Source of the DNA: Mesorhizobium sp. PAMC28654
GTDB taxonomy: Bacteria; Pseudomonadota; Alphaproteobacteria; Rhizobiales; Rhizobiaceae
DNA: 64,000 nt
Reading direction: 5' to 3'
Assembly (NCBI RefSeq): GCF_020616515.1
Contig: NZ_CP085135.1
Span: 62,001-126,000, forward strand
Positions 27,377 through 43,653 of the stretch are shown piece by piece. A model generated the notes under the pieces. The model was not told the origin of the DNA. It ran no database searches and saw nothing but the letters and a program-made list of their open reading frames with translations. The position numbers and the translations under genes are program-made. Position 1 is the stretch's first letter. Each line of letters starts with the position of its first letter.

Positions 27377-27599
27377 GTGCATGTTTGTCCGGTTCGGGCG
27401 ATGCGGCAGACTATACAGCAGGCCGCCGCCGCAAAGCCAATATTGCGCCATCGCTTTTCAACTGACCGACGCCAGGCCAGACGATCGGACGGGAAACAGG
27501 GATGGCGGATGCGACGGCTTGCTCCATGATATAGCCGTCTTTATCAAGGACGGGCTTTCTTTGAATACCTTTGCTGCTTGCCGAGTCGCCAAACAAATC

Positions 27600-30245
27600 A
27601 TGCTTTTCCGATTGCTCCGCCTGGTTCTGATGCTGACGCTGGCCGTATCGGCTGACCTGTCGTCCGGCGCCGTTGCGCAGGTCGCCGGCCAGGCTCCAGC
27701 AGCGCAGGGGGCCAGCCAGCCTCCCGCGGCGCCGGCGGTCAACCAGACACCGACCGCGCCCGCGGCCAACCAGACACCGGCCGCGCCAGCAGCCAGTCAA
27801 GCGCCGGCCGCGCCTGTGGTGAGCCAGACTCCGGCCGCACCAGCGGCCAGTCAGGCTCCCATCGGATTGATCGCCGATCAGCAGAAGATGATCCAGGACC
27901 TGACGGTAAAGACCGATGGGCTTGAGAAGAAAATTCAAGCGGATGGGGAGGAAGATTCCAGCCTCGTCGATATCCGCCTGCAACTCGAGGAACTGTCTCG
28001 CGAGTCGCTGAACACCGCGCTTGCGTTCCGTCCGCGCCTTGCCGAGATCAATGCCAGGATTCAGCAACTTGGCCCGGTACCCGCCGCGGGCCAGCCAGCG
28101 GAGCCCGATATCGTGGCCGCCGAACGTCAGGCGCTGACGTCGGAGAAGGCGGAGATCAATGCGGTCATCGCCGCGGCGCAGACCTTGTCCATCCGCATCA
28201 GCGGACTGATCGACAAGATCGGCAACATGCGCAGCGCGCTTTTCCGCAACCTGCTCACCAAGCGCTACGTGTTGACCGATGCGCTGAGCCCGCAGGTCTT
28301 TTCCGACGCCAATGACGAGTTTTCCAGCTTCTACAAGGCGGTATCGTCATGGTTGACGTTTGCCTTCAAGTTCAAGTTCCAGGCGGTACTGGCGGCGACC
28401 TTCGTGGCGCTCGGGCTTGCACTGGTGCTGCTGGTCGGTGGGCGCCGCCTGTTCGGGCGGGTGTTCGAACCCGACCCCACCGTCGAAGACCCGTCCTATC
28501 TCAGCCGCTTGTCGGTGGCCTTCTGGTCGACCCTGCTGCCGACGCTGGCGGTGAGTGCCTTTCTTGTCTCGACCATTTTCTTTTTCAATTATTACAACGT
28601 TTTGCGCGGCGACATTGGTATCTTCCTGAATGCACTGGCGGTCGTCATCGCGGTGGTATTCTGCGTCAACCGCCTTGCCAATGCTGCGCTGTCGCCGCGG
28701 CTGCCGAATTGGCGCCTGATCCCAGTCGAAACCGGGCCGGCGCGCTGGCTGGTGCGCTTGAGCACCGCCATGGCCGTGGTCATCAGCGTCAACACCTTCC
28801 TGTCGGTGGTGAACGACAAAATGGGCTCGCCGCTGTCGCTGACAATTGCCCGCAGTTTTGGCGCCACCATCATCGTCGGCGTCATCCTGATCCTGATGGC
28901 GCTGCTGAGGCCGTTCAAGGCGTCCGACGGAAGCTGGCGTCCCTGGCCGGCATGGCTGCGCTACCTCTCGCTGGCGCTTGGCCTGTTTACCGTCGTGGCG
29001 GCCTTGCTCGGCTATATCGGCCTTGCGCTCTTCGTCTCGCTGCAGGTCGTTGTCACAGGCACCGTGCTGGTCACCGCCTATATCGGCTTCCTGTCGGCGC
29101 GGGCGATCGGCGAGGAGGGCGCCTTCGCCGACACGTCGGTCGGGCGCTGGCTGTCGACCAATTCCAGCTACGAGGACACCGCGCTCGATCAACTCGGCCT
29201 GGTGGTCAGCGTCGCCATCAACCTGATGATCGTGCTGGTGTTCCTGCCGCTGATCCTGCTGATGTGGGGCTTCCAGCCCGGCGATATCCAGGCCTGGGGC
29301 TACAAGCTGGCGACAGGGATCAGCATCGGCTCGGTGACGATCTCCGTCACCGGCATCCTGAGCGGCATCGTCGTCTTCATCATCGGTTACTTCCTGACGC
29401 GCTGGTTCCAGGGCTGGCTCGACGGCTCGGTGATGGCGCGCGGCAAAGTCGACACCGGGGTGCGCAACTCGATCCGGCTGGCGGTCGGCTATGCCGGCGT
29501 GGCGCTTGCCGCGCTGGTCGGCATCTCGGCCGCCGGCATCGATCTCTCCAGTCTGGCGCTGGTCGCCGGCGCCCTTTCCCTTGGTATCGGCTTTGGCCTG
29601 CAGAACGTCGTTTCCAATTTCGTCTCGGGCCTGATCCTGCTGGCCGAACGGCCGTTCAAGGTTGGCGACTGGATCGTCGCCGGCGAGACCAGCGGCACCG
29701 TCAAGAAGATCAGCGTGCGCGCCACGGAGATCGAGACGTTCCAGCGGCAATCCGTGATCCTGCCCAATTCGAACCTGATCAACAATGCGGTCGGCAACTG
29801 GACACACCGCAACAAGCTCGGCCGCGTCGAAGTCAAGGTGGGCGTCGCCTATGGCAGCGACGTCAAGCGGGTCCATGCCATCCTGCTGGAAATCGCGCGG
29901 GGTCACCCTTTGGTGCTGAAGAACCCGGAACCCTTCGTGCTGTTTTCGAATTTCGGCGCCGCCGCGCTGGAATTCGAAATCCGCGTGTTCCTGGCCGATG
30001 TGATGAACGGCAGCTCCGTGCAAAACGATATTCGCTTTGCCGTTCTCGATGCCTTCGACAGTGAGCACATCGAAATCCCCTCGACGCCACGCGCCGTCGT
30101 CGAGGTCAAGAAGCATGCGGCATGGCCAATCGACGACGACAAGATCGAGGTCGATTTCGCCGAACAGCAGCAGGCAAAGGCCGAAGCCGAAGCCGAAAAG
30201 CGGCGTCTTGCCAAATCGCGCCGCAAGAAGCCCGATCCCGGTTAA
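27600..30245 (+). CDS. large MscS-type mechanosensitive channel with DUF3772 domain
   Basis: 881 aa from the ATG at 27600, which opens a signal peptide (MLFRLLRLVLMLTLAVSA). Residues 28-90 are a Pro/Ala/Gln low-complexity tract built of about six QTPAAPAAS-like units. A helical periplasmic DUF3772-type domain follows (100-235), then about ten membrane segments. The MscS pore and vestibule (GALSLGIGFGLQNVVSNFVSG near 650; core SLGIGFGLQNVVSNF) and ERPFKVGDWI are clear, and a charged Lys/Arg/Glu tail ends the protein. It relieves osmotic pressure in the inner membrane. The start is uncertain because the frame stays open upstream. Confidence 0.88.
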   Translation: MLFRLLRLVLMLTLAVSADLSSGAVAQVAGQAPAAQGASQPPAAPAVNQTPTAPAANQTPAAPAASQAPAAPVVSQTPAAPAASQAPIGLIADQQKMIQDLTVKTDGLEKKIQADGEEDSSLVDIRLQLEELSRESLNTALAFRPRLAEINARIQQLGPVPAAGQPAEPDIVAAERQALTSEKAEINAVIAAAQTLSIRISGLIDKIGNMRSALFRNLLTKRYVLTDALSPQVFSDANDEFSSFYKAVSSWLTFAFKFKFQAVLAATFVALGLALVLLVGGRRLFGRVFEPDPTVEDPSYLSRLSVAFWSTLLPTLAVSAFLVSTIFFFNYYNVLRGDIGIFLNALAVVIAVVFCVNRLANAALSPRLPNWRLIPVETGPARWLVRLSTAMAVVISVNTFLSVVNDKMGSPLSLTIARSFGATIIVGVILILMALLRPFKASDGSWRPWPAWLRYLSLALGLFTVVAALLGYIGLALFVSLQVVVTGTVLVTAYIGFLSARAIGEEGAFADTSVGRWLSTNSSYEDTALDQLGLVVSVAINLMIVLVFLPLILLMWGFQPGDIQAWGYKLATGISIGSVTISVTGILSGIVVFIIGYFLTRWFQGWLDGSVMARGKVDTGVRNSIRLAVGYAGVALAALVGISAAGIDLSSLALVAGALSLGIGFGLQNVVSNFVSGLILLAERPFKVGDWIVAGETSGTVKKISVRATEIETFQRQSVILPNSNLINNAVGNWTHRNKLGRVEVKVGVAYGSDVKRVHAILLEIARGHPLVLKNPEPFVLFSNFGAAALEFEIRVFLADVMNGSSVQNDIRFAVLDAFDSEHIEIPSTPRAVVEVKKHAAWPIDDDKIEVDFAEQQQAKAEAEAEKRRLAKSRRKKPDPG

Positions 30246-30452: not shown

Positions 30453-30615
30453 ACATTCAGGGGGTAGAATCCGCACCTTTCGAGGCCGCGCATGAATTGC
30501 GGCATGAATGCGGCATTCAGTTGCGGTTCAGCTTCCATCTCATATAAGTTCGCATGCAAAGGGCGAAAATGCCTTGCGAAATGCAACAGAGGCGGTGGGA
30601 ACACCGGTATTGCAC

Positions 30616-30879
30616 ATGTGGAAGTCTCTCGTCGCTGCCGTTGCCTTGCTCGCCGCGGGCGGTTCTGCCCATGCCGCCAGCGCGGTCAATAAGGACGCGC
30701 AGACCCGCACGCTCGTCGTAACCGAGGGTGGCAGCAAGTCCGAGCTGGCGCTGGCCGCCGGCGAAACAGTGGAATTTTGCGCCAGCGGCTGTTTCGTCAC
30801 CCTGCCCAATGGTGACCTGGAAGCCCTGACGGGTTCGGAAACGATCGAAATCTCGGGTGGAGTCGCCCGCATCAAGTAG
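30616..30879 (+). CDS. small secreted protein of unknown function
   Basis: 87 aa from the ATG at 30616 (MWKSLVAAVALLAAGGSAHAAS), a clean signal peptide cut after AHA. The mature 65 residues contain TLVVTEGGSKSELALAAGETVEFCASGCFVTL (cores LVVTEGGSKSELAL and VEFCASGCFVTLPNGD) with a close CASGC cysteine pair, and end in ISGGVARIK. It resembles small periplasmic proteins seen in Rhizobiales, but I do not recognise a named family. It stands alone between repeats and the secreted paralogue pair. Confidence 0.7.
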   Translation: MWKSLVAAVALLAAGGSAHAASAVNKDAQTRTLVVTEGGSKSELALAAGETVEFCASGCFVTLPNGDLEALTGSETIEISGGVARIK

Positions 30880-31220: not shown

Positions 31221-31287
31221 TGCCAAGCCTTGGCCATAGGTGTTCAGTGCTTTAGCAGTTGCTCTCAAGATATTCTGGGAGGTGCTG

Positions 31288-31980
31288 ATGAAACGCTTGG
31301 CTATGTTTGGACTTTTACTGGCTGGACTTTCCCCCATGGCGGCAATCGCGCAGACGCCAGCCAGTGATGCCAAGCCTTCGGCGATACAGCAGCCGCCTTC
31401 CTCTGGCCCCGCTCTATCCGATATGCGCCCGGTGGCCGTCGGCGATCACTGGACTTATCTCAGTAGGGACAATCTTACCGGCGACCTCACAGGCGAATTC
31501 ACCCAGACGGTCACGGACGTTGGAAACACGGACGTGAGCGTCAGTGTGAAGTTTCTCGGAGCGGCTCTTCCAGCTTTTTGCGTCTTTGATCGGCTGTGGA
31601 ATGTAAAAAGCACGAACGTTGCGAAGTTCGAGCCAAATGACGGGACAGGCGTGAATAATACAATGAAGGTGAACGACAGCTGGAATGCAAAAGCGTCGGA
31701 CATACGCTCCTCCCGAACGCTATGGAAGCGGGTGGAGACATCCAAGGTTATTGGTGAGGAATCCGTCACCACGGATGCAGGCACATTCAATGCTATCAAA
31801 TACGAGACAGTGGTCAACATCCGCGGAGCTGTTGATCCGGCACAGAAAGCCACGGTCACAACTACCACTTGGTGGGTGCCGGAGATCAATCATTGGGTGA
31901 AGCGATCCGAGAAAACCTTCAGAGACAAGCAGGTGAAATCAAACTGGACGGTTGAGCTTACCGACTACGGACGGTCTTGA
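31288..31980 (+). CDS. secreted protein of unknown function, tandem paralogue A
   Basis: 230 aa from the ATG at 31288, preceded by GGGAGGTGCTG. Signal peptide MKRLAMFGLLLAGLSPMAAIAQ, then a Pro-rich linker and a probable beta-rich domain. VGDHWTYLSRDNLTGDL, DAGTFNAIKYETVV and INHWVKRSEKTF...VELTDYGRS align with the next gene across the full mature length. Base composition is visibly less GC-rich than neighbours. No catalytic motif recognised. Likely periplasmic or outer-membrane-associated; lipid or envelope binding is only a guess. Confidence 0.75.
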   Translation: MKRLAMFGLLLAGLSPMAAIAQTPASDAKPSAIQQPPSSGPALSDMRPVAVGDHWTYLSRDNLTGDLTGEFTQTVTDVGNTDVSVSVKFLGAALPAFCVFDRLWNVKSTNVAKFEPNDGTGVNNTMKVNDSWNAKASDIRSSRTLWKRVETSKVIGEESVTTDAGTFNAIKYETVVNIRGAVDPAQKATVTTTTWWVPEINHWVKRSEKTFRDKQVKSNWTVELTDYGRS

Positions 31981-32005: not shown

Positions 32006-32713
32006 ATGACACCGATGAAGCTATTGTTCTTTACGGCGGCGCTCATTCTTTCCAGCGGATCAGTATTTGCCCAGGAAACAAATCCGCCGACGGGACAAGC
32101 GAAAGATAAGGCGCCCGAAACGGCCGCTACGCAGAATGCCGTCGACATGCCTCAGGCCGCGGTCGGTGATCATTGGAGCTACGACGTCTTTGATGACATA
32201 ACCGGTGCTGTGAAGGAGAGCCGCACCTGGCTGGTCACCGATGTTTCGCCCAAGGACATCACTTGCAGGGTAGAGCTTGCTGGTTCGTCTACAACCGAAA
32301 GCGTTATTATCTACGATACGTATTGGGATATTGTGAGGGACGGCGGGATCCGTTGGTCGCCCCATAATTTCGGTGGGGTGCAACTGCCTCTCGAAGTTGG
32401 AAAATCCTGGACTTTCAAAGCCAGTGAAATCGATATGAAGGGACAAGTCTGGAAAAAGTCAGGCCAGTCGCGAGTAACCGGCAAGGAAACCGTCGTTACC
32501 AAGGCCGGCAGCTTCGATGCCTTCGTTGTTGAAACGAAGTTTGTCAGGCGCAACGGCAATGACGCGTCACCCAAGTCAGACTTTACTATGAAGACATGGT
32601 ACAGTCCGGTGATAGATCACTGGGTCAAGCGCAGTACGATTGTTAGCCAGGATGGTCACGTCGTTCAAAATGACACGGTTGAACTGACCAGCTATGGCCG
32701 ACGAAAGACCTAG
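32006..32713 (+). CDS. secreted protein of unknown function, tandem paralogue B
   Basis: 235 aa from the ATG at 32006 after GAGAGGTCTATC. Signal peptide MTPMKLLFFTAALILSSGSVFAQ. Same domain as paralogue A: VGDHWSYDVFDDITGAV, KAGSFDAFVVETKF and IDHWVKRSTIVS...VELTSYGRRKT. The 25-base gap suggests co-transcription after tandem duplication and strong divergence. A rho-independent terminator lies downstream. It also has lower GC than neighbours. Confidence 0.75.
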   Translation: MTPMKLLFFTAALILSSGSVFAQETNPPTGQAKDKAPETAATQNAVDMPQAAVGDHWSYDVFDDITGAVKESRTWLVTDVSPKDITCRVELAGSSTTESVIIYDTYWDIVRDGGIRWSPHNFGGVQLPLEVGKSWTFKASEIDMKGQVWKKSGQSRVTGKETVVTKAGSFDAFVVETKFVRRNGNDASPKSDFTMKTWYSPVIDHWVKRSTIVSQDGHVVQNDTVELTSYGRRKT

Positions 32714-33073: not shown

Positions 33074-34507
33074 ATGGACGCGCGATCGGACAGGAACGCT
33101 ATTCCGCTTGCGGTCGATCTCGACGGCACGCTGATCTCGACCGATCTGTTGTGGGAAGGGCTGTTCATCCTTCTCAAGAAGAACCCGCTCTACATCTTCC
33201 TCGTGCCCTTCTGGGCCGCTGGCGGCCCGGCTCGCCTGAAGCAGGCCATTGCCCAGCGCATAGACATAGATCCGGCTTCGTTGCCCTACCGCGACGTGCT
33301 GCTTCAGCGCCTTCGCGCCGAGCATGCCGAAGGCCGCAAGATCGTGCTGGCGACCGGCACGCCACGCAAATTCGCCGAGGCCATCGCCGGCCATCTGGGC
33401 ATTTTCGACCGGGTGCTGGCGACCGACGGCCTCGACAATCTGACCGCCGGCAAGAAGCGCGCCTCGCTTGTCGCGGCCTATGGCGATGGTGGGTTCGATT
33501 ATGCCGGCAACAGCCGGCACGACCTCAAGGTCTTCGATGCCGCCCGCACCGCTATTGTCGTGGCGCCGGACCGGCACGCCGCGCGCTGGCAGGCAGCGAA
33601 TGGCGCCGAGATGGTGCCGGCGCCGAAGCCGACGTTCCGGACCATCGTCAAGATGCTGCGCGTGCATCAGTGGTTGAAGAACTCGCTGATCGTGGTGCCG
33701 ATGGTGCTGGCGCACCAATATTTCAGCCCCAACATGATCTGGGAATGCATGCTGGCGTTCATCTCGTTCAGCGCGGTGGCGTCGGCCATCTACATCCTCA
33801 ACGATTTCTTCGATCTCGCACTCGACCGTAAACACGCCACCAAGCGTAACCGGCCGTTCGCCAGCGGCGCTCTTTCGATTCCGTTCGGGATCGGCGCGAT
33901 CGTGGTGCTGCTGGCGGTCGGCGTCTGCACCAGCCTTGCACTGTCCATAGAGTTCCTCGCCGTGCTCGGCGCCTACATCGTCGTCACCACGGCCTATTCG
34001 CTGTCGTTCAAGCGCATGTTGCTGGTCGACGTGCTGACGCTGGCGGGGCTCTACTCGATCCGTGTCCTGGCGGGCGCAGCCGCAACGGGGGTCGCCGTGT
34101 CGTTCTGGCTGCTGGCTTTCTCCATCTTCTTCTTCCTGTCGCTGGCGCTGGTGAAGCGCTACGTCGAATTGCGCACCACCGCCATTCCCGCTGGCGAGCG
34201 CATTGCCGGCCGTGGCTATCGCACCGAAGACCAGGAGATCGTCGCGCAGGCGGGCATGGCCTCGGCTTTCTCGTCCGCGCTGGTGCTGGCGCTCTACATG
34301 GACAGCGTCGCGGTCCGCGAGCTTTACCCGCACCCCTGGCTGATCTGGCCATTGGCGCCGATCGTGCTCTACCTGACCATGCGCGTCTGGATCCTCGCGC
34401 GGCGCGACGAGATGCACGACGATCCGGTTGTGTTCATCATCCGCGATTGGCGCAGCCAGATCGTGGTGTTCATCGGCGCCGTGCTGCTGGTCATCGGGGG
34501 CTGGTAG
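33074..34507 (+). CDS. HAD-UbiA fusion: polyprenyl-phosphate phosphoribosyltransferase-like
   Basis: 477 aa from the ATG at 33074 after CAGGACGGGAC. Residues 10-190 are a HAD-type phosphatase (DLDGTLISTD, motif II ATGTPRKF). Residues 195-477 are a UbiA prenyltransferase with about eight helices and the motif NDFFDLALDRKHATKRNRP near 255 plus YSIRVLAGAAA near 335. This matches decaprenyl-phosphate 5-phosphoribose synthases (UbiA of mycobacteria, NoeC of Azorhizobium), and the HAD part could remove the 5-phosphate. It leads a cluster whose next gene is DprE1-like, supporting a polyprenyl-P-pentose pathway. Confidence 0.87.
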   Translation: MDARSDRNAIPLAVDLDGTLISTDLLWEGLFILLKKNPLYIFLVPFWAAGGPARLKQAIAQRIDIDPASLPYRDVLLQRLRAEHAEGRKIVLATGTPRKFAEAIAGHLGIFDRVLATDGLDNLTAGKKRASLVAAYGDGGFDYAGNSRHDLKVFDAARTAIVVAPDRHAARWQAANGAEMVPAPKPTFRTIVKMLRVHQWLKNSLIVVPMVLAHQYFSPNMIWECMLAFISFSAVASAIYILNDFFDLALDRKHATKRNRPFASGALSIPFGIGAIVVLLAVGVCTSLALSIEFLAVLGAYIVVTTAYSLSFKRMLLVDVLTLAGLYSIRVLAGAAATGVAVSFWLLAFSIFFFLSLALVKRYVELRTTAIPAGERIAGRGYRTEDQEIVAQAGMASAFSSALVLALYMDSVAVRELYPHPWLIWPLAPIVLYLTMRVWILARRDEMHDDPVVFIIRDWRSQIVVFIGAVLLVIGGW

Positions 34508-34509
34508 GC

Positions 34510-35859
34510 ATGGCCGAGCGTTACCAAAGCTTCGGCCTCGCCACGTCACCGGCAGCACGCGCAGTCACCGCCGATGATGGTGTCGCGATGCTGAAGACCC
34601 GGGAGGCGAAGAAGGACGGCCTGCTCGCATACGGCAATGGCCGCTCCTACGGCGATTCCTGCCAGAACGCGGCAGGCGCCGTCGTCGACATGCGCTCGCT
34701 GAACCGCATCCGCGCCTTCAATCCCGAAACCGGCGTTATCGAGGCCGAGGCCGGGGTTCTCCTGTCCGACATCATTGCGCATGCTGCACCTTACGGCTTC
34801 TTTCCGGCAGTTGTCCCGGGCACCCAGTTCGTCACGCTTGGCGGCGCCATCGCCAACGACGTCCACGGCAAGAACCACCACCGGCGCGGCACGTTCGGCT
34901 GTCATGTCGAATCCTTCGCGTTGCTGCGTTCGGACGGCCGAACATATCGCTGCTCGGCCACCGACCATGCACGCCTGTTCCGCGCGACGATCGGCGGCAT
35001 GGGGCTGACCGGCCTGATCCTGTCGGCCTTGGTCCGCCTGATGCGGGTGCCTTCGCTCGACATCGTCGAGAAGGCGACACCATTTCGCGATCTCGGTGAA
35101 TTCTTCGGCCTTGCCGAGGCCGCCGACCAGGCCAATGAATATGCCGTCGCCTGGATCGACCAGCTTGCCGGCGGCCGCAACAGCGGGCGCGGCCTGTTGT
35201 TCACCGGCAACCATGCCGAGCATGGCTCGCACGTGGCCTCGCACGCAACTGGGGCATTGTCGGTACCGGTCCAGCCGCCGTTCAATGTGCTCAACCGGCC
35301 GTTCCTCACCGCTTTCAATGCAGCGTACCGATGGAAGAAAGGCCGGTCTTCCGCGCCGCGCCATGTCGGTTACCAGGGCTTCTTCTTTCCGCTCGACGGG
35401 GTCCGTGACTGGAATCGGCTTTATGGACCGAAAGGGCTGTTCCAGCACCAGAGCGTCGTGCCGGAAGACACCGCGCGCCAGGTCGTGCCGGCACTGCTCG
35501 CGGCGGCACGAAAGGCCGGGCAAGGCTCGTTCCTGACCGTGCTGAAACGCTTCGGCTCGATCCGTTCGCCGGCTCTGCTGTCGTTTCCCCGGCCGGGGTT
35601 CACGCTGACGCTCGACTTTCCCAACCGGGGCGCACCAACGCTTGCGTTGCTGTCGGAACTCGACCGCATCACCGTGGAAGCCGGCGGCGCGGTCAATCCG
35701 TACAAGGATGCCCGCATGGGCGCCGAAATCCTCGCTTCGTCCTTTCCAGATTGGCAGCGCCTGGAAGCGCTGCGCGATCCCGCCTTCATGTCGAGCTTCT
35801 GGGCACGGACAGCGAAAAGACTCGATGGGCGGCGCGCCGCCGCCGAGGCCGCGGAATAG
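34510..35859 (+). CDS. DprE1-like FAD-dependent oxidase
   Basis: 449 aa, two bases after the UbiA fusion. VAO-type FAD domain with GNGRSYGDSCQNAAGAVVDM near residue 42, PGTQFVTLGGAIANDVHGKNHH near 105 (core VTLGGAIANDVHGKNH) and GGMGLTGLI near 162. The C-terminal part follows the decaprenylphosphoryl-ribose 2-oxidase pattern (NPYKDARM near 400). It would oxidise the 2-hydroxyl of polyprenyl-P-ribose before reduction to the arabinose epimer. A similar sugar-lipid oxidase role is possible. Confidence 0.85.
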   Translation: MAERYQSFGLATSPAARAVTADDGVAMLKTREAKKDGLLAYGNGRSYGDSCQNAAGAVVDMRSLNRIRAFNPETGVIEAEAGVLLSDIIAHAAPYGFFPAVVPGTQFVTLGGAIANDVHGKNHHRRGTFGCHVESFALLRSDGRTYRCSATDHARLFRATIGGMGLTGLILSALVRLMRVPSLDIVEKATPFRDLGEFFGLAEAADQANEYAVAWIDQLAGGRNSGRGLLFTGNHAEHGSHVASHATGALSVPVQPPFNVLNRPFLTAFNAAYRWKKGRSSAPRHVGYQGFFFPLDGVRDWNRLYGPKGLFQHQSVVPEDTARQVVPALLAAARKAGQGSFLTVLKRFGSIRSPALLSFPRPGFTLTLDFPNRGAPTLALLSELDRITVEAGGAVNPYKDARMGAEILASSFPDWQRLEALRDPAFMSSFWARTAKRLDGRRAAAEAAE

Positions 35860-35982
35860 GTAAAATTCGACTTAGTCTTGGTTATCACATTGCTAACCCA
35901 ATGGTTCATTCAAAATATTCTTGTTACTTCACGAAATGTTTGCGGGTTTGCACTAGGACGGTGAAGGGATGAGTGGGAAAAT

Positions 35983-36414
35983 ATGAAATACATTGTCTTC
36001 ATTCTTTTTACGGTCATGACCAACGCCGCCGCGCAGGTGATGCTCAAGCAGGGCATGATGTCGCTCGGGCCGATTTCGTTCGAGGGCGTCAATCCGGCGG
36101 TGAAGCTGTTGCAGATCGTGTTCAGCCCATGGGTTTTCCTCGGGCTCTGCACCTTCGTTATCTCGATGGGATCGCATCTTTATGTGTTGTCCAAGGTCGA
36201 GCTCTCCTTCGCCTATCCGTTTCTCAGCCTTGCCTATGTGGTTGTCGCGATCGTCGCCTATTTTGTCTTCCGCGAGGACCTCAATGGCTGGCGCATCGCC
36301 GGCATCGCCTTCATCTGCTTAGGCACGGTGCTGATTGCGCAGAGCGGGCGCGTGCATGACGAGGAAACGGCTTCTCTTTCGTCCGACAAGATTCACAGCG
36401 AGATCATTCGATGA
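35983..36414 (+). CDS. SMR/EamA-like small membrane transporter (candidate lipid-sugar flippase)
   Basis: 143 aa with four hydrophobic helices: TNAAAQVMLKQGMMSLG near residue 13, FVISMGSHLYVLSKVELSFAYPFLSL mid-protein (core LSKVELSFAYPFLSL), and GIAFICLGTVLIAQ. This pattern fits ArnE/ArnF-type proteins that flip lipid-linked aminoarabinose. A 123-base AT-richer gap precedes it, with no gene. It overlaps the SDR gene by ATGA. Its place in the cluster suggests it flips the polyprenyl-P-sugar to the periplasm. Confidence 0.82.
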   Translation: MKYIVFILFTVMTNAAAQVMLKQGMMSLGPISFEGVNPAVKLLQIVFSPWVFLGLCTFVISMGSHLYVLSKVELSFAYPFLSLAYVVVAIVAYFVFREDLNGWRIAGIAFICLGTVLIAQSGRVHDEETASLSSDKIHSEIIR

Positions 36415-37418
36415 GACATGTGATTTTCGGCGGCGACGGTTTCGTCGGCCGCCACCTGGCTCCCAAACTGCTGGTCGACGGCGAGGATGTGGTCGTCGCC
36501 GATATCGTCAAGAGCGACCTGCCGCATTACCGCAACGTCCGCTTCGTTCAGTGCGACGTCACCGATCCTGCCTCGGTCGACTCGGTCGGACTGAAGACCG
36601 ACGACATGGTCTACAATCTGTCGGCAAAAATGCTGTCGCCGATCCAGGTGCGCGCCAAGCGGCACGACTTCTTCTTCCCTGTCAATTTCCATGGCACCGA
36701 GCACATCATGCAGGCCATGGACAGAGCCGGCGCATCGAAGCTCGTGCATTACACGACCGACATGATCTACGGTCATACGGTGACGCAGCCGATGACCGAG
36801 GAGCATCCGGTCGCGCCGCTTGGCGAGTATGGCTGGTCGAAGCAGAAGACCGAGGAACTGGCGGCCGAATGGCGCAAGCGCGGCATGTCGATCTCGCTGT
36901 TTCGTCCGCGCCTGATCATCGGCCCAGGTCGGCTCGGCATCCTGGAAAAGCTGTTCAAGCTGATCGACTGGAGTTTTCCCGTGCCGATGATCGGCTCGGG
37001 CAGGAACCCCTACCAGTTCATCTCGGTGTTCGACTGCGCCGAGGCCGCGCGCGCCGCCTGGAAAGCCGGTGTGCCCAACGAGGCCTATAATCTCGGTTCG
37101 CTCAATCCGCCGCCGGTCAAGAAATTGCTCGGCGACCTGATCAGGCATGCCGGTTCGAAGTCGATCCTGGTCCCGACGCCGGGCTGGGCGGTCAAGCGGA
37201 CGCTCGACCTGCTCGATCTGATGAACATGCCGATCATGGATCCGGAACAATATCTGATCGCCGACGAGGAATGCGTGCTCGACGTGTCCAAGGCCGAGCG
37301 CCAGCTTGGCTGGGTGCCGCAATATCGCGACGAGGACATGCTGATCGCCGCCTACAGCGAATACCGGGCCAAGAAGGCCGGCCATGCTGTCGCCACCAAA
37401 CACGTACCCGCCGAATAA
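36411..37418 (+). CDS. extended SDR: NAD-dependent epimerase/dehydratase
   Basis: 335 aa. The NAD-binding motif FGGDGFVGRHL is at residue 5, the extended-SDR catalytic YGWSK near 140 and RPRLIIGPGRLGIL near 165. It acts on a nucleotide or lipid-linked sugar. If the cluster makes polyprenyl-P-arabinose, this could replace the classical DprE2 reductase, though it is longer than DprE2 and of the extended type, so it may instead make another sugar. Coupled to the flippase-like gene. Confidence 0.87.
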   Translation: MRHVIFGGDGFVGRHLAPKLLVDGEDVVVADIVKSDLPHYRNVRFVQCDVTDPASVDSVGLKTDDMVYNLSAKMLSPIQVRAKRHDFFFPVNFHGTEHIMQAMDRAGASKLVHYTTDMIYGHTVTQPMTEEHPVAPLGEYGWSKQKTEELAAEWRKRGMSISLFRPRLIIGPGRLGILEKLFKLIDWSFPVPMIGSGRNPYQFISVFDCAEAARAAWKAGVPNEAYNLGSLNPPPVKKLLGDLIRHAGSKSILVPTPGWAVKRTLDLLDLMNMPIMDPEQYLIADEECVLDVSKAERQLGWVPQYRDEDMLIAAYSEYRAKKAGHAVATKHVPAE

Positions 37419-37455
37419 TGGGACGGCCGAATACAGGCCAATTGGAGATTTTGTA

Positions 37456-38928
37456 ATGACCGTCATGGCCAAACCCGACCACACGAGCGCGCGCACCATG
37501 GTCAGCGCGCCGGCTCTGTCGCCCGCAACCATCGCCAAGCCTGACCTGATCAGCGTCGAGCAGGCGAAGGCCATGGACGTCGCTCGCATGACCGACCTGT
37601 TCAAGGCGCACCTGAACCCCGGCCAGCTGCATTTCATGAAGCTGCTCGGCTTCCACAAGATCAAGATCGAGCGCGCCGAGGGAATGTTCTACATCGACCA
37701 GAGCGGCCGCAAGATCCTCGACTTTTTCGGCGGCTTTGGATCGCTGGCCTTCGGCCACAACCATCCGCGCATCCTCGAAGCGCGCAGGAAATTCCAGGAA
37801 GAAAGGCGCCAGGAAATCGCCATCGCCTTCATGTCGCAATACGCGGCCGCATTGGCGCACAACCTCGCGAAGTGCTCGCCCGGTGATCTCGACATGGTGT
37901 TCCTTGGCTCATCCGGCTCGGAAGCCATGGAAGCAGCGGTGAAGCTCGCCGAGCGCGCGGCCGGCCCGAAGCGGCCGAAAGTCGTCTATGCCGAGAATTC
38001 CTTCCACGGCAAGACCAAGGGCGTTCTGGGCATCACCGATGGCCAGCTCTACCGCGCCGACTTCAAGATGGCCGACAATACCGTCCGCATTCCCTTCGCC
38101 GACATCGGAGCGGTCGAGCGCCTGTTTCGCTCTGACCCGGAGATCGGCGTCATCGTGCTTGAAACCATCCAGGGCGGTGGCGGCATCATCCAGGCGCCGG
38201 CCGAATACTGGCAGAAACTGCGCGCGCTCTGCGATCAGTTTGGCGTGCTGTGGGTGGCCGATGAAGTGCAGTGCGGCTATGGCCGCTCCGGCCGCTTCTA
38301 TGCCTTCGAGCATTATGGTGTCATTCCGGATGTGACCGCGCTGGCCAAGTCGCTGGGCGGCGGCAAGGCGGCCGTCGGCGCGATGATCGCGCGTCGCGAA
38401 GTCTACATGAAGGCCTATGGTACGCCGAAGACGGCGATGATCCATGCCATGGCGACCTTCGGCGGCATGGGTGAGGCCTGCGTCACGTCGATCGAGGCGC
38501 TGAACGTGCTTTATGACGAGGGGCTGATCGACAACGCCGCCGTCACCGGCGACTACCTGCTGCAGCGCCTGCAGGCGCTCAAGGAGAAGTATCCGAAGAT
38601 CATCAAGGATGTTCGCGGCAAGGGATTTATGGTCGGGCTGGAGTTCCACGACTTCTCGCAGACCTTGCCGATGGTGCTGCGGCCCATCGTCAGCGTGCTC
38701 GACGACAAGCTCAAGGGCTCGCTGTCGGGCTTCGTCGGGGCGCTGTTTCTGCGCGATTACGACGTGCTCGTCGCCTTCACCGAATACAACCGCAACGTCA
38801 TCCGTCTCGAACCGCCGCTGATCTGCCAGCGCGAGCATGTCGACCGCTTCGTCGATGCCTTCGACAGCCTGTTGTCGCGTGGCATCGTGTCGATCGTGAA
38901 GGATTTCGTCAAAAGCCAAGTCCGCTAA
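37456..38928 (+). CDS. class-III PLP aminotransferase
   Basis: 490 aa from the ATG at 37456 after TTGGAGA. Fold features are FGGFGSLAFGHNHP near residue 95, GSSGSEAMEAAVKLA near 153, WVADEVQCGYGRSG near 270 and the PLP lysine in ALAKSLGGGKAAVGAMI near 300. The family transfers amino groups between omega-amino or amino acids and keto acids. Within a glycan cluster it could make an amino sugar or an amino acid for decorating a glycan or lipid. Unusually long N-terminal extension (about 60 residues). Confidence 0.88.
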   Translation: MTVMAKPDHTSARTMVSAPALSPATIAKPDLISVEQAKAMDVARMTDLFKAHLNPGQLHFMKLLGFHKIKIERAEGMFYIDQSGRKILDFFGGFGSLAFGHNHPRILEARRKFQEERRQEIAIAFMSQYAAALAHNLAKCSPGDLDMVFLGSSGSEAMEAAVKLAERAAGPKRPKVVYAENSFHGKTKGVLGITDGQLYRADFKMADNTVRIPFADIGAVERLFRSDPEIGVIVLETIQGGGGIIQAPAEYWQKLRALCDQFGVLWVADEVQCGYGRSGRFYAFEHYGVIPDVTALAKSLGGGKAAVGAMIARREVYMKAYGTPKTAMIHAMATFGGMGEACVTSIEALNVLYDEGLIDNAAVTGDYLLQRLQALKEKYPKIIKDVRGKGFMVGLEFHDFSQTLPMVLRPIVSVLDDKLKGSLSGFVGALFLRDYDVLVAFTEYNRNVIRLEPPLICQREHVDRFVDAFDSLLSRGIVSIVKDFVKSQVR

Positions 38929-38945
38929 AGAGAAGTTCACTAAGC

Positions 38946-40178
38946 ATGCTGACCAAGCCCCCCGCTCCCAGGAATCCACTCGACCGGCTCACCTTGGCCG
39001 GTCTGGCATGGGGCGAGGGAACCTATGCGCGGCTGGCAGCACCGATCGGCGCGGCGGCCTTCGCGCTCTACATTCTCCTGACGGCATTCACGGCGTGGGT
39101 TCTGCCCGACACCAACTGGGACATGCTGCCCTATCTCGCTGTCGCCGAGGAGGGCACCTATCCCGATCCGCAGGCCTTGCATGATTACGCCTACAGCACG
39201 GTGAAGGCCGGCGTTTCGGCTGGCGACTATGCGGCGCTGACCGACGATGGCGGCGGCTTCCGCAGTCATATGACGTCGAATGCCGCCGATTTCCATTCGC
39301 TGCTCGGCATGTACCGGATCAAGTTCCTCTATGCCGAGATACTGTCGACGCTGAGCTCGGTGATGTCGCCGGTCGAGGCAATGCGGATCGTCTCGGTGTT
39401 TTCGGTGCTGCTGTTCGGCGCGATCACCCTGTGGTGGTTGCGCTCCGAGGGCGCGCTGGCGCTGGCGCCCGTTGTCGCCGCGGTGCTGATCATGGCCGAT
39501 TTTGGTGAAGCGGCGCGGGCCTCGACGCCGGACCTGCTGTGCTCGGCGCTGTTTCTCGCCGGGCTCTATGCCTATGTCCGCGGTCGCGAGGTGGCTACGG
39601 CGATCCTGCTTTTCCTCGCCTTCATGGCGCGGCCGGACAACATTGTCTTTCTTGCCATCTTCGCCGTTCTGCTCATTGCCTACCGGCAGAAGGCCTGGGG
39701 CGCGCTGGCCGGTTTTGCCGCCTCCTTCGTCGCCTATTTCGCCATCTCGCACTGGGCGCATCATCCGGGCTGGTGGCCGCATCTGTGGTTCTCCAGCATC
39801 GAGCAGCACTACAATATGAATAACTTCCACCCGGCGTTCTCGGTCACCGCCTATCTCAGGGCCTTTGCCACCTCCCTCCTGCGTGCTGTCAGCATGAACA
39901 GCTGGGTTGGCGTCTCGGTGCTGGCGCTGGCGGGATGGTATACGGCCAGCCGCGCCGGCTTCCGGCTCGACCGCCGCGGCGGCATTTTGTTCGCCGCGCT
40001 GGTGCTCGGGGTGTTGGCCAAGTTCACAGTTTTTCCGATCCACGACACGCGCATCTATTTTCCTAACCTGATCCCGCCCTTCCTGCTGCTGGTTGGTCCC
40101 TTGATGGCGCTGTGGTCATCCCTGGGGCACGGCGAACGCCGCGTTGGCTTACACGTCATTCCCGGAGACAAGCCATGA
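38946..40178 (+). CDS. polytopic membrane protein, GT-C glycosyltransferase-like
   Basis: 410 aa with about nine hydrophobic helices. The first extracytoplasmic loop contains TNWDMLPYLAVAEEG near residue 57, which has the acidic placement used by GT-C enzymes that take polyprenyl-phosphate sugars. FHSLLGMYRIKFLYAE near 118 and HDTRIYFPNLIPP near 365 are further features. There is no strong family signature, so the call rests on topology and context. It would add the lipid-linked pentose to a periplasmic acceptor. It overlaps the FkbM gene by ATGA. Confidence 0.65.
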   Translation: MLTKPPAPRNPLDRLTLAGLAWGEGTYARLAAPIGAAAFALYILLTAFTAWVLPDTNWDMLPYLAVAEEGTYPDPQALHDYAYSTVKAGVSAGDYAALTDDGGGFRSHMTSNAADFHSLLGMYRIKFLYAEILSTLSSVMSPVEAMRIVSVFSVLLFGAITLWWLRSEGALALAPVVAAVLIMADFGEAARASTPDLLCSALFLAGLYAYVRGREVATAILLFLAFMARPDNIVFLAIFAVLLIAYRQKAWGALAGFAASFVAYFAISHWAHHPGWWPHLWFSSIEQHYNMNNFHPAFSVTAYLRAFATSLLRAVSMNSWVGVSVLALAGWYTASRAGFRLDRRGGILFAALVLGVLAKFTVFPIHDTRIYFPNLIPPFLLLVGPLMALWSSLGHGERRVGLHVIPGDKP

Positions 40179-40933
40179 GTTCCGTTCCCGGCCTGGCGCG
40201 CATTGCCCTGTCGCTAGGTCTCCCCAAGAGCCTGCTCGATCGCGGCCCATCACTGCGCGGCACGAAATTCCTGGCAAGGGCAGCGTTGAAGGCGCGGCTC
40301 AGTGGGGCAGGGCAGCCGTTCCAGATGGTCAATGTCGGCGCCTGCGATGGCGCGCTTTTCGATGATGTGACGCCGTGGCTGCATCGCATCCCGCGAGCAC
40401 GCGCAGTGCTGGTCGAGCCGATCCCGTACAATCAGAAGCGGCTGCGCGCCAACTATCCCGACACGAACCGCTTCATTATCGAGCCGGTGGCCGTGACGAA
40501 GACAAAGGGAACGATCACCGTTCACACCTTCGATGCCGCCGCGCTCGAGGCCGGCACGTTGCCGATCGAGTTCATCGGCTGCTCGTCGGTCACCGACACC
40601 AACCTGATGTCGGGCAAGAATGCCTGGGGTGAAGAAGACACTGACTTCAACAAGTTCGCTCCGCATCTCAAGGACATCGAGGTGCCGTCGGAAACCCTGC
40701 AGACGCTGCTCGACCGCAACGGCATCAGCCATATCGACGCCTTCCTCGTCGATTGCGAGGGCGCCGACTGGATCGTCTTCGAACAGCTCGACCTCAAGCG
40801 CTATCGTCCGGGCATGATCAAGATTGAAGTCGGCGCGCTGCCCGCCCCGGAGATCGGCCAGGTCGTGGTCAAGCTCAAGACCGCCGGCTACCAGGTCGGC
40901 CTCCAGGCGGAAGACATCTGGGCTTTCGCCTGA
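40175..40933 (+). CDS. FkbM-family SAM methyltransferase
   Basis: 252 aa from the ATG at 40175, coupled to the membrane protein by a 4-base overlap. The SAM motif MVNVGACDGALFDDV is near residue 50, VLVEPIPYNQKRL near 78 and DAFLVDCEGADW near 188, the FkbM pattern. Members O-methylate sugars or glycan termini. It closes the seven-gene cluster and fits a final modification of the surface glycan. Confidence 0.88.
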   Translation: MSSVPGLARIALSLGLPKSLLDRGPSLRGTKFLARAALKARLSGAGQPFQMVNVGACDGALFDDVTPWLHRIPRARAVLVEPIPYNQKRLRANYPDTNRFIIEPVAVTKTKGTITVHTFDAAALEAGTLPIEFIGCSSVTDTNLMSGKNAWGEEDTDFNKFAPHLKDIEVPSETLQTLLDRNGISHIDAFLVDCEGADWIVFEQLDLKRYRPGMIKIEVGALPAPEIGQVVVKLKTAGYQVGLQAEDIWAFA

Positions 40934-41091: not shown

Positions 41092-43653
41092 ATGGCAGGG
41101 TTTCCGGAAAAGGCGAAGGTCGTCATCATCGGCCTGGGTGGGATTGTCGGCGCATCGATCGCCCACCACCTGATCGAGCGCGGCTGGGATGACATCGTCG
41201 GCATCGACAAATCCGGCATCCCGACCGACATCGGCTCGACGGCGCACGCCTCCGACTTCTGCTACACGACCAGCCATGATTTCCTGTCCTGCTGGACGAC
41301 GCTCTACTCCATCGATTTCTACGAGAAGATGGGCCATTACGCCCGCGTCGGCGGCCTCGAAGTCGCTCGCGTCGGCGATGACGGTCGCATGGACGAGATC
41401 AAGCGCAAGATCGCTTCGGCGAAGGCTTTTGGCACGCGCGCACGGCTGATCGAACCGGCCGAGATCAAGGAAAAGTTTCCGCTGATCGAGGAGCATCTTG
41501 TACAAGGCGGCCTGTGGGATCCCGATGCCGGTCTCGTCATTCCGCGCTCACAGACCGTCGCCGGCAAGCTGGTCGACCAGGCGGAAGCTTCGGGCAAGCT
41601 GAAATCCTTCGCCAATACGCCGGCCAGGTCGCTCATCGTCAAGGATGGCCGCATTACCGGCGTGGTGACCGATCGCGGCACCATCGAGGCCGACTATGTC
41701 ATCGTCTGCGCCGGCATCTGGGGCCGGCTGATCGCGGAGATGGTTGGCGAGGACCTGCCGGTCATGCCGATCGACCATCCGCTCACCTTCTTCGGCCCCT
41801 ACAACGAGTTCGCTGGGACGGGCAAGGAGATCGGCTGGCCGCTGCTGCGCGACCAGGGCAATTCGGCCTATATGCGCGACACCGGCGATCCCAAGACCGC
41901 CGAGGGCGGACAGATCGAATGGGGCTATTACGAAGAGACCAATCCGCGCCTTTGCCACCCGCGCGACCTGTTGGAGAAGGACCAGGCCCGGCTTTCGCCA
42001 TCGCAGCGCGACCTCGACATGGAGCAGATCCTGGCGCCGCTAGAGCGCGCCATGGAACTGACGCCGATCCTGGGCGAACTCGGCTACAATGAGAGCCACT
42101 CCTTCAACGGCCTGCTGCAGGTAACGGCGGATGGCGGCCCGTCCATGGGCGAGAGCCAGAAGGTACGGGGCCTATGGTATGCCGTTGCCATCTGGGTCAA
42201 GGACGGCCCGGGCATGGGCAAGCTCATTGCCGACTGGATGACGGACGGCCGCACCTCGATCGATCATCACGCCATCGACTATGCGCGCTTCTATCCGCAC
42301 CAGACCAAGGAGCAGTTCATCTGGGATCGCTGCACCGAGACGGCGATGAAGGTCTACAATCCGGCGGTGCATCCGCGCGAGCCGTTCTCCAAGGGCCGCA
42401 ACATCCGGCGCTCGCCGTTCTGGGAGCGTGAGAAGGAACTCGGCGGCTATTTCATGGAACTTGGCGGCTGGGAGCGCGCGCATGGCTATGCCGCCAACGA
42501 GCATCTCCTGGAGAAGTACGGCAACCGCGTGCCGGTGCGCGAGAACGAGTGGGACAACCGCCATTTCTGGCGGGTTTCCAATGCCGAACACCTCGCCATG
42601 AGCGAGGATTGCGGCATCGTCAACCTGTCGCATTTCGCCATGTACGACGTCGAGGGCCCTGATCACGTCGCGTTGCTGGAATGGCTCTGCGCGGCCAAGA
42701 TCGGCGGTGACAACAATATCGGCAAGGGCATCTACACCCACTTCCTCGACGAGGAAGGCATGGTGCGCGCCGACTTTACCGTCATCCGCATGGCCGACCG
42801 CTGCCGTTTGATCGACGGTGCTGACGCCGGACCGCGCGACTTCCAGTACATGCGCCGCACCGCGCAGGACAAAGGGTTCGACGTCACCATCACCGACGTG
42901 ACGGAGAAATTCGTCACCATCGGCATCTGGGGTCCGAACGGGCGGGCGACCCTGCAGAAGGTGGTCGAGAATCCGGACGGGCTTTCGCTCGAAAACTTCC
43001 CCTTCGCGGCGATCAAGCCGGTTCGGATCGGCGGCAAGGATGTCACCGCTTTCCGCATCTCCTATGTCGGCGAGCAGGGCTGGGAACTGCACATGCGCTA
43101 CGAGGACGGCCTCGCCGTCTGGGACGCGCTGCGCTCGACCGGCGTGATGCCCTTCGGCGTCGAGACCTATGCCAACACGCGCCGCATGGAAAAGAGCCTG
43201 CGCCTGCAGAACGCCGACCTTCTGACCGAGTACAATCTGCTCGAAGCCGATCTTGCACGTCCGAAGGTCAAGGAGAATGATTTCTGCGGCAAGGCCAAGC
43301 ACGTTGAGTATCGCGCCCGCGAGCACCAGCCGGCGATGCTGTGCACGCTGGTGATGACCGACAATATCGATGCGAAGGGCGTGGCCCGTTATCCCGTTGG
43401 CATCATGCCGGTGATGGACCCCAAGACCGGCGAAACGCTGGTCGACGAACTCGGCCGCCGGTCGTTCACGACCTCGATGGCCTACGGCCCGACCATCGGC
43501 AAGAACATCGGTCTTGCCTACCTGCCGTGGGCCCATGCCCAGGAAGGCCGCAAGTTCGCCATCGAGTATTTCGGCGAGACGTATCCGGTTGAGGTCGCGG
43601 CTGTCGGCTACAAGCCGCTCTACGATCCGGAGAACCTCAAGCCGCGCAGCTGA
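41092..43653 (+). CDS. divergent FAD-dependent dehydrogenase with GcvT domain
   Basis: 853 aa from the ATG at 41092 after TTGGAGTCG. Same two-part plan as the dehydrogenases at 8.6 and 13.1 kb, but the flavin motif is VIIGLGGIVGASIAHHLIERG and the usual STWHAAG reads GSTAHASDFC, keeping His52 in a changed setting. The C-terminal GcvT half shows YVGEQGWELHMRYEDG near 655 and METYANTRRMEKSLR-like folate-site residues (core NTRRMEKSL). It probably demethylates a different N-methyl compound and makes methylene-THF. Single gene between the glycan cluster and a hairpin, with a shared regulatory box upstream. Confidence 0.83.
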   Translation: MAGFPEKAKVVIIGLGGIVGASIAHHLIERGWDDIVGIDKSGIPTDIGSTAHASDFCYTTSHDFLSCWTTLYSIDFYEKMGHYARVGGLEVARVGDDGRMDEIKRKIASAKAFGTRARLIEPAEIKEKFPLIEEHLVQGGLWDPDAGLVIPRSQTVAGKLVDQAEASGKLKSFANTPARSLIVKDGRITGVVTDRGTIEADYVIVCAGIWGRLIAEMVGEDLPVMPIDHPLTFFGPYNEFAGTGKEIGWPLLRDQGNSAYMRDTGDPKTAEGGQIEWGYYEETNPRLCHPRDLLEKDQARLSPSQRDLDMEQILAPLERAMELTPILGELGYNESHSFNGLLQVTADGGPSMGESQKVRGLWYAVAIWVKDGPGMGKLIADWMTDGRTSIDHHAIDYARFYPHQTKEQFIWDRCTETAMKVYNPAVHPREPFSKGRNIRRSPFWEREKELGGYFMELGGWERAHGYAANEHLLEKYGNRVPVRENEWDNRHFWRVSNAEHLAMSEDCGIVNLSHFAMYDVEGPDHVALLEWLCAAKIGGDNNIGKGIYTHFLDEEGMVRADFTVIRMADRCRLIDGADAGPRDFQYMRRTAQDKGFDVTITDVTEKFVTIGIWGPNGRATLQKVVENPDGLSLENFPFAAIKPVRIGGKDVTAFRISYVGEQGWELHMRYEDGLAVWDALRSTGVMPFGVETYANTRRMEKSLRLQNADLLTEYNLLEADLARPKVKENDFCGKAKHVEYRAREHQPAMLCTLVMTDNIDAKGVARYPVGIMPVMDPKTGETLVDELGRRSFTTSMAYGPTIGKNIGLAYLPWAHAQEGRKFAIEYFGETYPVEVAAVGYKPLYDPENLKPRS

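Follow-up and report, generated by a model that had tools for sequence, protein, structure and literature searches.

Which sugar is made by a seven-gene cluster of Mesorhizobium sp. PAMC28654 that combines enzymes of lipid-linked pentose synthesis with an aminotransferase? The cluster occupies positions 33074-40933 of the window, that is, the whole 64,000-nucleotide stretch analyzed here (it covers positions 62001-126000 of its contig, a single one of 6.70 Mb), and comprises seven intact open reading frames, all on the + strand. They encode a fusion of HAD phosphatase and UbiA domains, a DprE1-type oxidase, a small membrane protein (SMR), an extended short-chain dehydrogenase/reductase (SDR), a class III aminotransferase (AT), a predicted GT-C fold glycosyltransferase, and an FkbM-family methyltransferase. 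The first-pass annotation, made from the sequence alone, had assigned them to a polyprenyl-phosphate pentose pathway related to NoeC and to mycobacterial decaprenyl-phosphate-arabinose synthesis, with a flippase and a transferase of its own and possibly an amino-bearing product. Our analysis points to the same class of pathway, with a likely flippase and a likely GT-C transferase, and to an amino-bearing pentose as the likely product; the further claim that the classical DprE2 reductase is replaced by SDR did not survive. We propose that the cluster probably makes a polyprenyl-phosphate-linked 2-amino-2-deoxypentofuranose, which would be transferred to a surface glycan or protein, and that AT takes the place of DprE2.

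Aminotransferase and DprE2-like reductase in the order

The UbiA-HAD fusion, DprE1, the DprE2-like reductase, AT, and SDR were searched for in the same sample of 297 genomes of the order (E<=1e-50 for DprE1, E<=1e-120 for AT, E<=1e-70 for SDR, and E<=1e-35 for NF005489), and the surroundings of all UbiA-HAD matches, present in 73/297 genomes, were taken. As a proxy for DprE2 we used NF005489, the family to which the gene immediately downstream of DprE1 belongs in 28 of the 29 genomes of the DprE2 type. DprE1 was found in 44 genomes: 29 carry a DprE2-like reductase, 14 carry AT, none carries both, and one (G206) carries neither. The naive probability of this exclusion, with kinship ignored, is approximately 1e-10. 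At the threshold used, NF005489 matched nothing in the 14 AT genomes, including that of the window, where the DprE2 reductase of the DprE1/DprE2 (NoeH/NoeO) pair is accordingly not found, although other stand-in reductases were not searched for. When NF005489 was searched for more deeply in 36 selected genomes, with as many as 55 candidates scored per genome, the 14 AT genomes again gave no match, nor did G499, a genome from outside the order. Three more weak matches (124-131 bits) all fall in genomes without DprE1. Switches between the two kinds carry more weight than these statistics: both AT and DprE2 kinds occur within a single genus (g72) and likewise within families f1, f2, and f11.

In the order sample, AT was restricted to genomes that also carry UbiA and DprE1 (14/14). 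It again adjoins a DprE1 in G499, a genome located via its SDR and therefore not an unbiased draw, where SMR, SDR, and AT are 62-69% identical and accompany a remote DprE1 (39%) and a UbiA that is not fused. Seven of the ten AT genomes outside the genus carry UbiA, DprE1, SMR, SDR, and AT in one stretch, and in G274 SMR-SDR-AT and UbiA-DprE1 lie on separate contigs. Identity between genera reaches 67-76% for AT and 58-79% for SDR (44% in G230), compared with 36-57% for UbiA and DprE1; AT and SDR are thus the most conserved parts of the cluster between genera.

The role of the SDR

An SDR substituting for DprE2 would be expected in every genome without DprE2 and in none that has it, and four genomes contradict this. 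G161 and G183, two of the 14 AT genomes, possess DprE1 and AT, and no SDR of the window family was found in them at E<=1e-70. In G161, UbiA, DprE1, and AT are adjacent on a 15.8 kb contig without SDR or SMR; the G183 assembly is 91% complete and split into 290 contigs, so its SDR gap is less certain. SDR and DprE2 coexist in G043, and G230 carries UbiA-SMR-SDR, with an SDR 44% identical and the same catalytic residues, in a genome where DprE1, DprE2, and AT were not found. We therefore rejected SDR as the replacement of DprE2. Because the presence of AT excludes DprE2 while SDR breaks that rule, it is AT that occupies the DprE2 slot. AT follows the rule without exception save G206; the economical reading is that AT acts on the 2-keto lipid produced by DprE1, most likely aminating its C2 ketone.

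As to SDR itself, the available text on Citrobacter youngae describes the ORF13 SDR as sufficient to turn the lipid-linked ribofuranose route of O1 into the O2 xylofuranose route, and ties DprE1/E2 homologs to arabinofuranose (Kelly et al. 2024, PMC11127046). On the strength of this precedent and of the UbiA-SMR-SDR locus of G230, which fits it in having no DprE1, SDR is by analogy with ORF13 probably a C3 epimerase of the lipid-linked pentose. G043 carries SMR-SDR-UbiA-DprE1 of the AT type, without AT, at L040 6233-10501, and a DprE2-like reductase at L218 9477-10229; it represents a natural swap and is possibly a lyxofuranose maker.

Two further observations concern related loci. A second extended SDR directly follows DprE2 in 9/29 DprE2-type genomes (L224, L056, L083, L085, L096, L097, L098, L105, and L227); in the two loci aligned it shows 22-24% identity to the window SDR, and the TDM motif is absent. 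Isoprenoid genes lie near two pentose loci, namely a polyprenyl diphosphate synthase-like gene at L091 13545-14705 (G230) and a 1-deoxy-D-xylulose-5-phosphate synthase gene at L213 904-2820 (G499), as though the lipid-linked pentose loci were tied to the supply of isoprenoids.

Genes of the cluster

Protein families were assigned by Pfam, NCBIfam, and PDB sequence matches. The genes are closely spaced, with intergenic gaps of 2, 123, -4, 37, 17, and -4 bases from 5' to 3', the 4-base overlaps joining SMR to SDR and GT-C to FkbM; a promoter and terminator scan gave signals at chance level only. The best 120 of 2547 (AT), 232 (GT-C), and 2323 (SDR) protein matches were close relatives.

The HAD-UbiA fusion (33074-34507, alternative start 33014) is predicted to be a polyprenyl-phosphate phosphoribosyltransferase with its own 5-phosphatase, of the NoeC/Rv3806c/ORF15 type. 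Its HAD (PF12710) and UbiA domains score above the Pfam cut-offs, NF006088 gives 636 bits (cut-off 351), and PDB entry 8j8j is matched with E 2e-23. DLDGT and NDxxDxxxD, which we take to be the catalytic motifs of the HAD and UbiA parts, respectively, are both present. The second gene (34510-35859) encodes the DprE1-type flavin adenine dinucleotide (FAD) oxidase, a presumed polyprenyl-phosphate-ribose 2-oxidase, which matches PF01565, NF053785 with 328 bits (under the cut-off of 500), and PDB DprE1 with E of about 5e-65. Beside the FAD domain it retains the active-site histidine and lysine: H119 and K399 align with His132 and Lys418 of Mycobacterium tuberculosis and are conserved in at least 44 of 45 DprE1 proteins. 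The SMR/EamA protein (35983-36414) is ArnE/ArnF-like and a likely flippase; it scores 54 bits against the ArnF family (under the cut-off of 99), is of the SMR and not the MATE type, and adjoins UbiA, SDR, or AT in related loci. Judged by sequence, the DprE1 and SMR proteins are relatives of the NF053785 and ArnF families with scores below those of certified members.

SDR (36411-37418, PF01370) has the glycine-rich nicotinamide adenine dinucleotide (NAD) motif and YxxxK of GalE-like extended SDRs, a comparison made without the ORF13 sequence. GGxGxxG, D31 (NAD-type site), T116-D117, and Y140xxxK144 are invariant across 12 sequences; the SDR of G499, outside those 12, carries S at D31. AT (37456-38928, with a possible upstream ATG at 37384) matches Aminotran_3 (PF00202) with 281 bits. 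K298 and D269 are invariant in 12 sequences, and K298 aligns with a lysine of PDB 4ppm; we take them to be the pyridoxal 5'-phosphate (PLP) lysine and the aspartate of the cofactor site, both of which characterize class III aminotransferases. The predicted AT structure (predicted local distance difference test score 44) was too poor for use. The GT-C protein (38946-40178), GT87-like and variable between loci, has no Pfam match above cut-off, and its predicted structure resembles GT-C enzymes, EmbB, AftA, AftB, and AftD among others. The FkbM-family methyltransferase (40175-40933, PF05050) is accessory.

DprE1 phylogeny and pocket

DprE1 residues T367, N396, and Y398 (window positions 35608-35703) align with M. 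tuberculosis C387, Y415, and A417, which the available text of a docking study gives as pocket residues (PMC9525719). One DprE1 clade has T, N, and Y at these positions and the other mostly A, Y, and A; the signature occurs in 13 of the 14 AT-type DprE1 proteins of the order. The DprE1 of G043, a genome that is without AT and carries its DprE2 on a separate contig, branches among the AT-type DprE1 proteins in the tree. A single clade of all AT-linked DprE1 proteins was rejected (p 4e-59), the group having been named after the first tree and G499 forming a long branch. We likewise rejected the idea that pocket changes track AT: with G043, G161, and G499 as exceptions, the signature marks a DprE1 clade. 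The difference in pocket residues may mirror a change of sugar from ribo to xylo.

The DprE1 of G206 (L219 9318-10667) also sits on a long branch; the stretch fetched around it is without UbiA, DprE2, and AT, and the conserved KD reads KT. This orphan DprE1 is probably decaying or repurposed.

Conservation in Mesorhizobium and near relatives

The cluster was compared in 80 of 464 relatives (Mesorhizobium, Aminobacter, and Pseudaminobacter). UbiA-DprE1-SMR-SDR-AT-GT-C occur in the same order in 72 of the 80, and the arrangement is therefore not due to chance; the seven-gene cluster recognized in the first-pass annotation is real. All seven genes are in order in 57 relatives and FkbM is missing in 15, among which L134 stops inside GT-C and L181 has a GT-C just 36% identical. 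Seven more have the first five genes, without a window-type GT-C and without FkbM, and the remaining one is without UbiA, its contig beginning inside DprE1. The same annotation had counted the methylase as part of the pathway's own equipment; FkbM is indeed present in the cluster, but it is an optional, accessory gene, not found in 22/80 relatives (including L134, whose stretch ends ahead of the expected gene) nor in any neighborhood scanned outside the genus.

The chromosomal site of the cluster is conserved in Mesorhizobium, three flanking genes (27453-30242, 30508-30876, and 41095-43650) being present in the stretch of 75/80 relatives. AT occurs in 69/90 genomes of the genus. In G136, a complete genome without AT, approximately 200 bases separate the left and right flanks, and within this otherwise empty site 60 bases (L229 5503-5562) still match the end of FkbM, which points to a probable loss of the cluster by deletion. 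Just upstream of the cluster, a tandem pair (31285-31977 and 32009-32710) shows weak DUF3108-like matches under the cut-off. The pair was matched in none of the stretches of the 80 relatives and was rejected as part of the module, probably being a local insertion.

Proposed pathway and alternative explanations

The genes and the families they belong to, the intact state of the catalytic residues, the co-conservation of the genes, and the mutual exclusion of AT and DprE2 were directly observed in the genomes examined; from this genomic evidence we propose the individual reactions, C2 as the position, the sugar configuration, and the acceptor. The UbiA-HAD fusion would move 5-phosphoribose from phosphoribosyl pyrophosphate (PRPP) to polyprenyl phosphate and strip the 5-phosphate to yield polyprenyl-phosphate-ribofuranose. 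SDR would probably invert C3 (ribo to xylo), like ORF13 of C. youngae O2, and DprE1 would oxidize C2 to the ketone. AT would then aminate this ketone, the same one that DprE2 reduces to give arabinose in other bacteria. The donor would be flipped by the ArnE/F-like SMR protein and its sugar passed to an acceptor outside the membrane by the interchangeable GT-C enzyme; FkbM may methylate the donor, the sugar, or the acceptor. The predicted products are 2-amino-2-deoxy-xylo- or -lyxofuranose where SDR is present and 2-amino-2-deoxy-ribo- or -arabinofuranose where it is not.

Other routes could be drawn from the same genes. DprE1 and SDR might together epimerize C2 to give polyprenyl-phosphate-arabinofuranose, with AT acting at another carbon or on the acceptor. 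This would agree with the NAD site and YxxxK of SDR and with the lack of a DprE2-like match in all 14 AT genomes, 12 of which carry SDR; however, DprE1 and AT occur without an SDR of the window family in G161 and G183, SDR accompanies DprE2 in G043, and UbiA-SMR-SDR stand without DprE1 in G230, and we consider this route unlikely. Doubtful, too, is a scheme in which SDR oxidizes C3 (or C5) and AT aminates there, while an unrecognized reductase and DprE1 set C2, so that the pentofuranose would bear its amino group at C3 or C5. In its favor, primary aldehydes are frequent substrates of class III enzymes, SDR accompanies AT in the same 12 genomes and adjoins it in most loci, and G274 keeps SMR-SDR-AT apart from UbiA-DprE1. 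Yet AT manages without SDR in G161 and G183, and this scheme does not predict the exact AT/DprE2 exclusion, another reductase common to the loci not having been searched for. That AT and SDR are mere neighbors serving a separate amino acid or amine pathway is very improbable: AT shows a broad relationship with the putrescine, acetylornithine, and PigE aminotransferases, but in the order sample it is confined to genomes with UbiA and DprE1, and it lies beside DprE1 again in G499.

Several points weigh against the amination of the DprE1 ketone by AT. The co-occurrence of SDR with AT in 12/14 genomes is not required by this model, and G206 keeps DprE1 with neither DprE2 nor AT. NF005489 is a proxy for DprE2 and no validated equivalog; among 14 control genomes it was positive in Corynebacterium glutamicum and one Bacteroides, both under the cut-off, although C. 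glutamicum is its positive control. The pair test on the DprE1 tree had only four pairs, three in the direction that exclusion predicts and one uninformative (p 0.25), and the pocket signature occurs without AT in G043, and AT without the signature in G161 and G499. Sugar 2-ketones would be unusual substrates for class III aminotransferases, and to our knowledge none has been described that acts on the ketone of a lipid-linked sugar; no reported aminopentofuranose matches the predicted product. M. loti DSM 2626 (L109), presumably the same strain as NZP2213, carries the cluster. The published lipopolysaccharide (LPS) composition of M. loti NZP2213, in the portion of the source available, lists no pentose (PMC6274867), and LPS as the acceptor is thus unsupported; the acceptor may be something other than LPS, or the sugar may have escaped the analysis or may not be made.

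The broader claim, which we hold with evenly balanced confidence, is that of an undescribed branch in which class III AT captures the 2-keto-pentofuranose of DprE1 to give polyprenyl-phosphate 2-amino-2-deoxypentofuranoses (xylo/lyxo with SDR, ribo/arabino without). It would be a furanose counterpart of the aminoarabinose system, with interchangeable GT-C enzymes, placing a positively charged furanose on the envelope. A DprE1-aminotransferase pathway was not reported in the open-licence literature, among the matches listed. If the proposal is correct, the DprE1 ketone is a branch point, with reduction leading to arabinose and amination to an amino-pentose, and a class of bacterial surface sugar is added. 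Mesorhizobium would then have a further envelope decoration, possibly cationic and of potential importance in plant contact and toward antimicrobial peptides, and AT beside DprE1 would serve as a genomic marker for the amino-pentose pathway. The roles of auxiliary enzymes in three-component systems would also become sharper, with C3 set by SDR and C2 by DprE1 with either DprE2 or AT.

Comparison with known systems

The three-component pentofuranose systems, exemplified by ORF12-15 of C. youngae O1/O2, combine UbiA and a HAD-type phosphatase with a flippase, a transferase of the GT-C kind, and a pentofuranose-setting SDR, with DprE1/E2 for arabinofuranose in related systems, according to the available text, in whose main part the word 'aminotransferase' is absent (PMC11127046). 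The cluster likewise has a polyprenyl phosphoribose synthase with a phosphatase, in the form of the HAD-UbiA fusion, an SDR that probably plays a similar part, and a predicted GT-C fold transferase; it differs in its likely flippase, of the SMR rather than the MATE type, in DprE1 without DprE2, and in the added class III AT. The Nod-factor genes offer a second comparison, in which NoeC, NoeH, and NoeO are presumably the counterparts of UbiA, DprE1, and DprE2, respectively. D-arabinosylation of Nod factors by noeCHOP (Azorhizobium; noeCNHOP in IRBG74) is a related decaprenyl-phosphate-arabinose route, and the available text assigns three of its four steps to noeC, noeH, and noeO (PMC5080398). 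In contrast to noeCHOP, the cluster has no DprE2 counterpart, contains AT, and has a different transferase.

In the mycobacterial synthesis of decaprenyl-phosphate-arabinose (Rv3806c, DprE1, DprE2, Rv3789, Emb/Aft), the likeness lies in the phosphoribosyltransferase and DprE1, which match PDB 8j8j and 4fdn, and in the Emb/Aft enzymes, which the GT-C model of the cluster resembles; however, DprE2 is missing from the cluster, AT and SDR are added, and the HAD phosphatase is fused. The Arn pathway (ArnBCADTEF) to 4-amino-4-deoxy-L-arabinose is a UDP-sugar route with ArnA and the DegT-type aminotransferase ArnB, neither of which is among the cluster genes, the only ones considered here. The cluster would instead start from PRPP without a UDP-sugar, uses a class III AT, and is predicted to yield a furanose. 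By its gene content, the cluster is a new predicted variant within the three-component pentofuranose systems.

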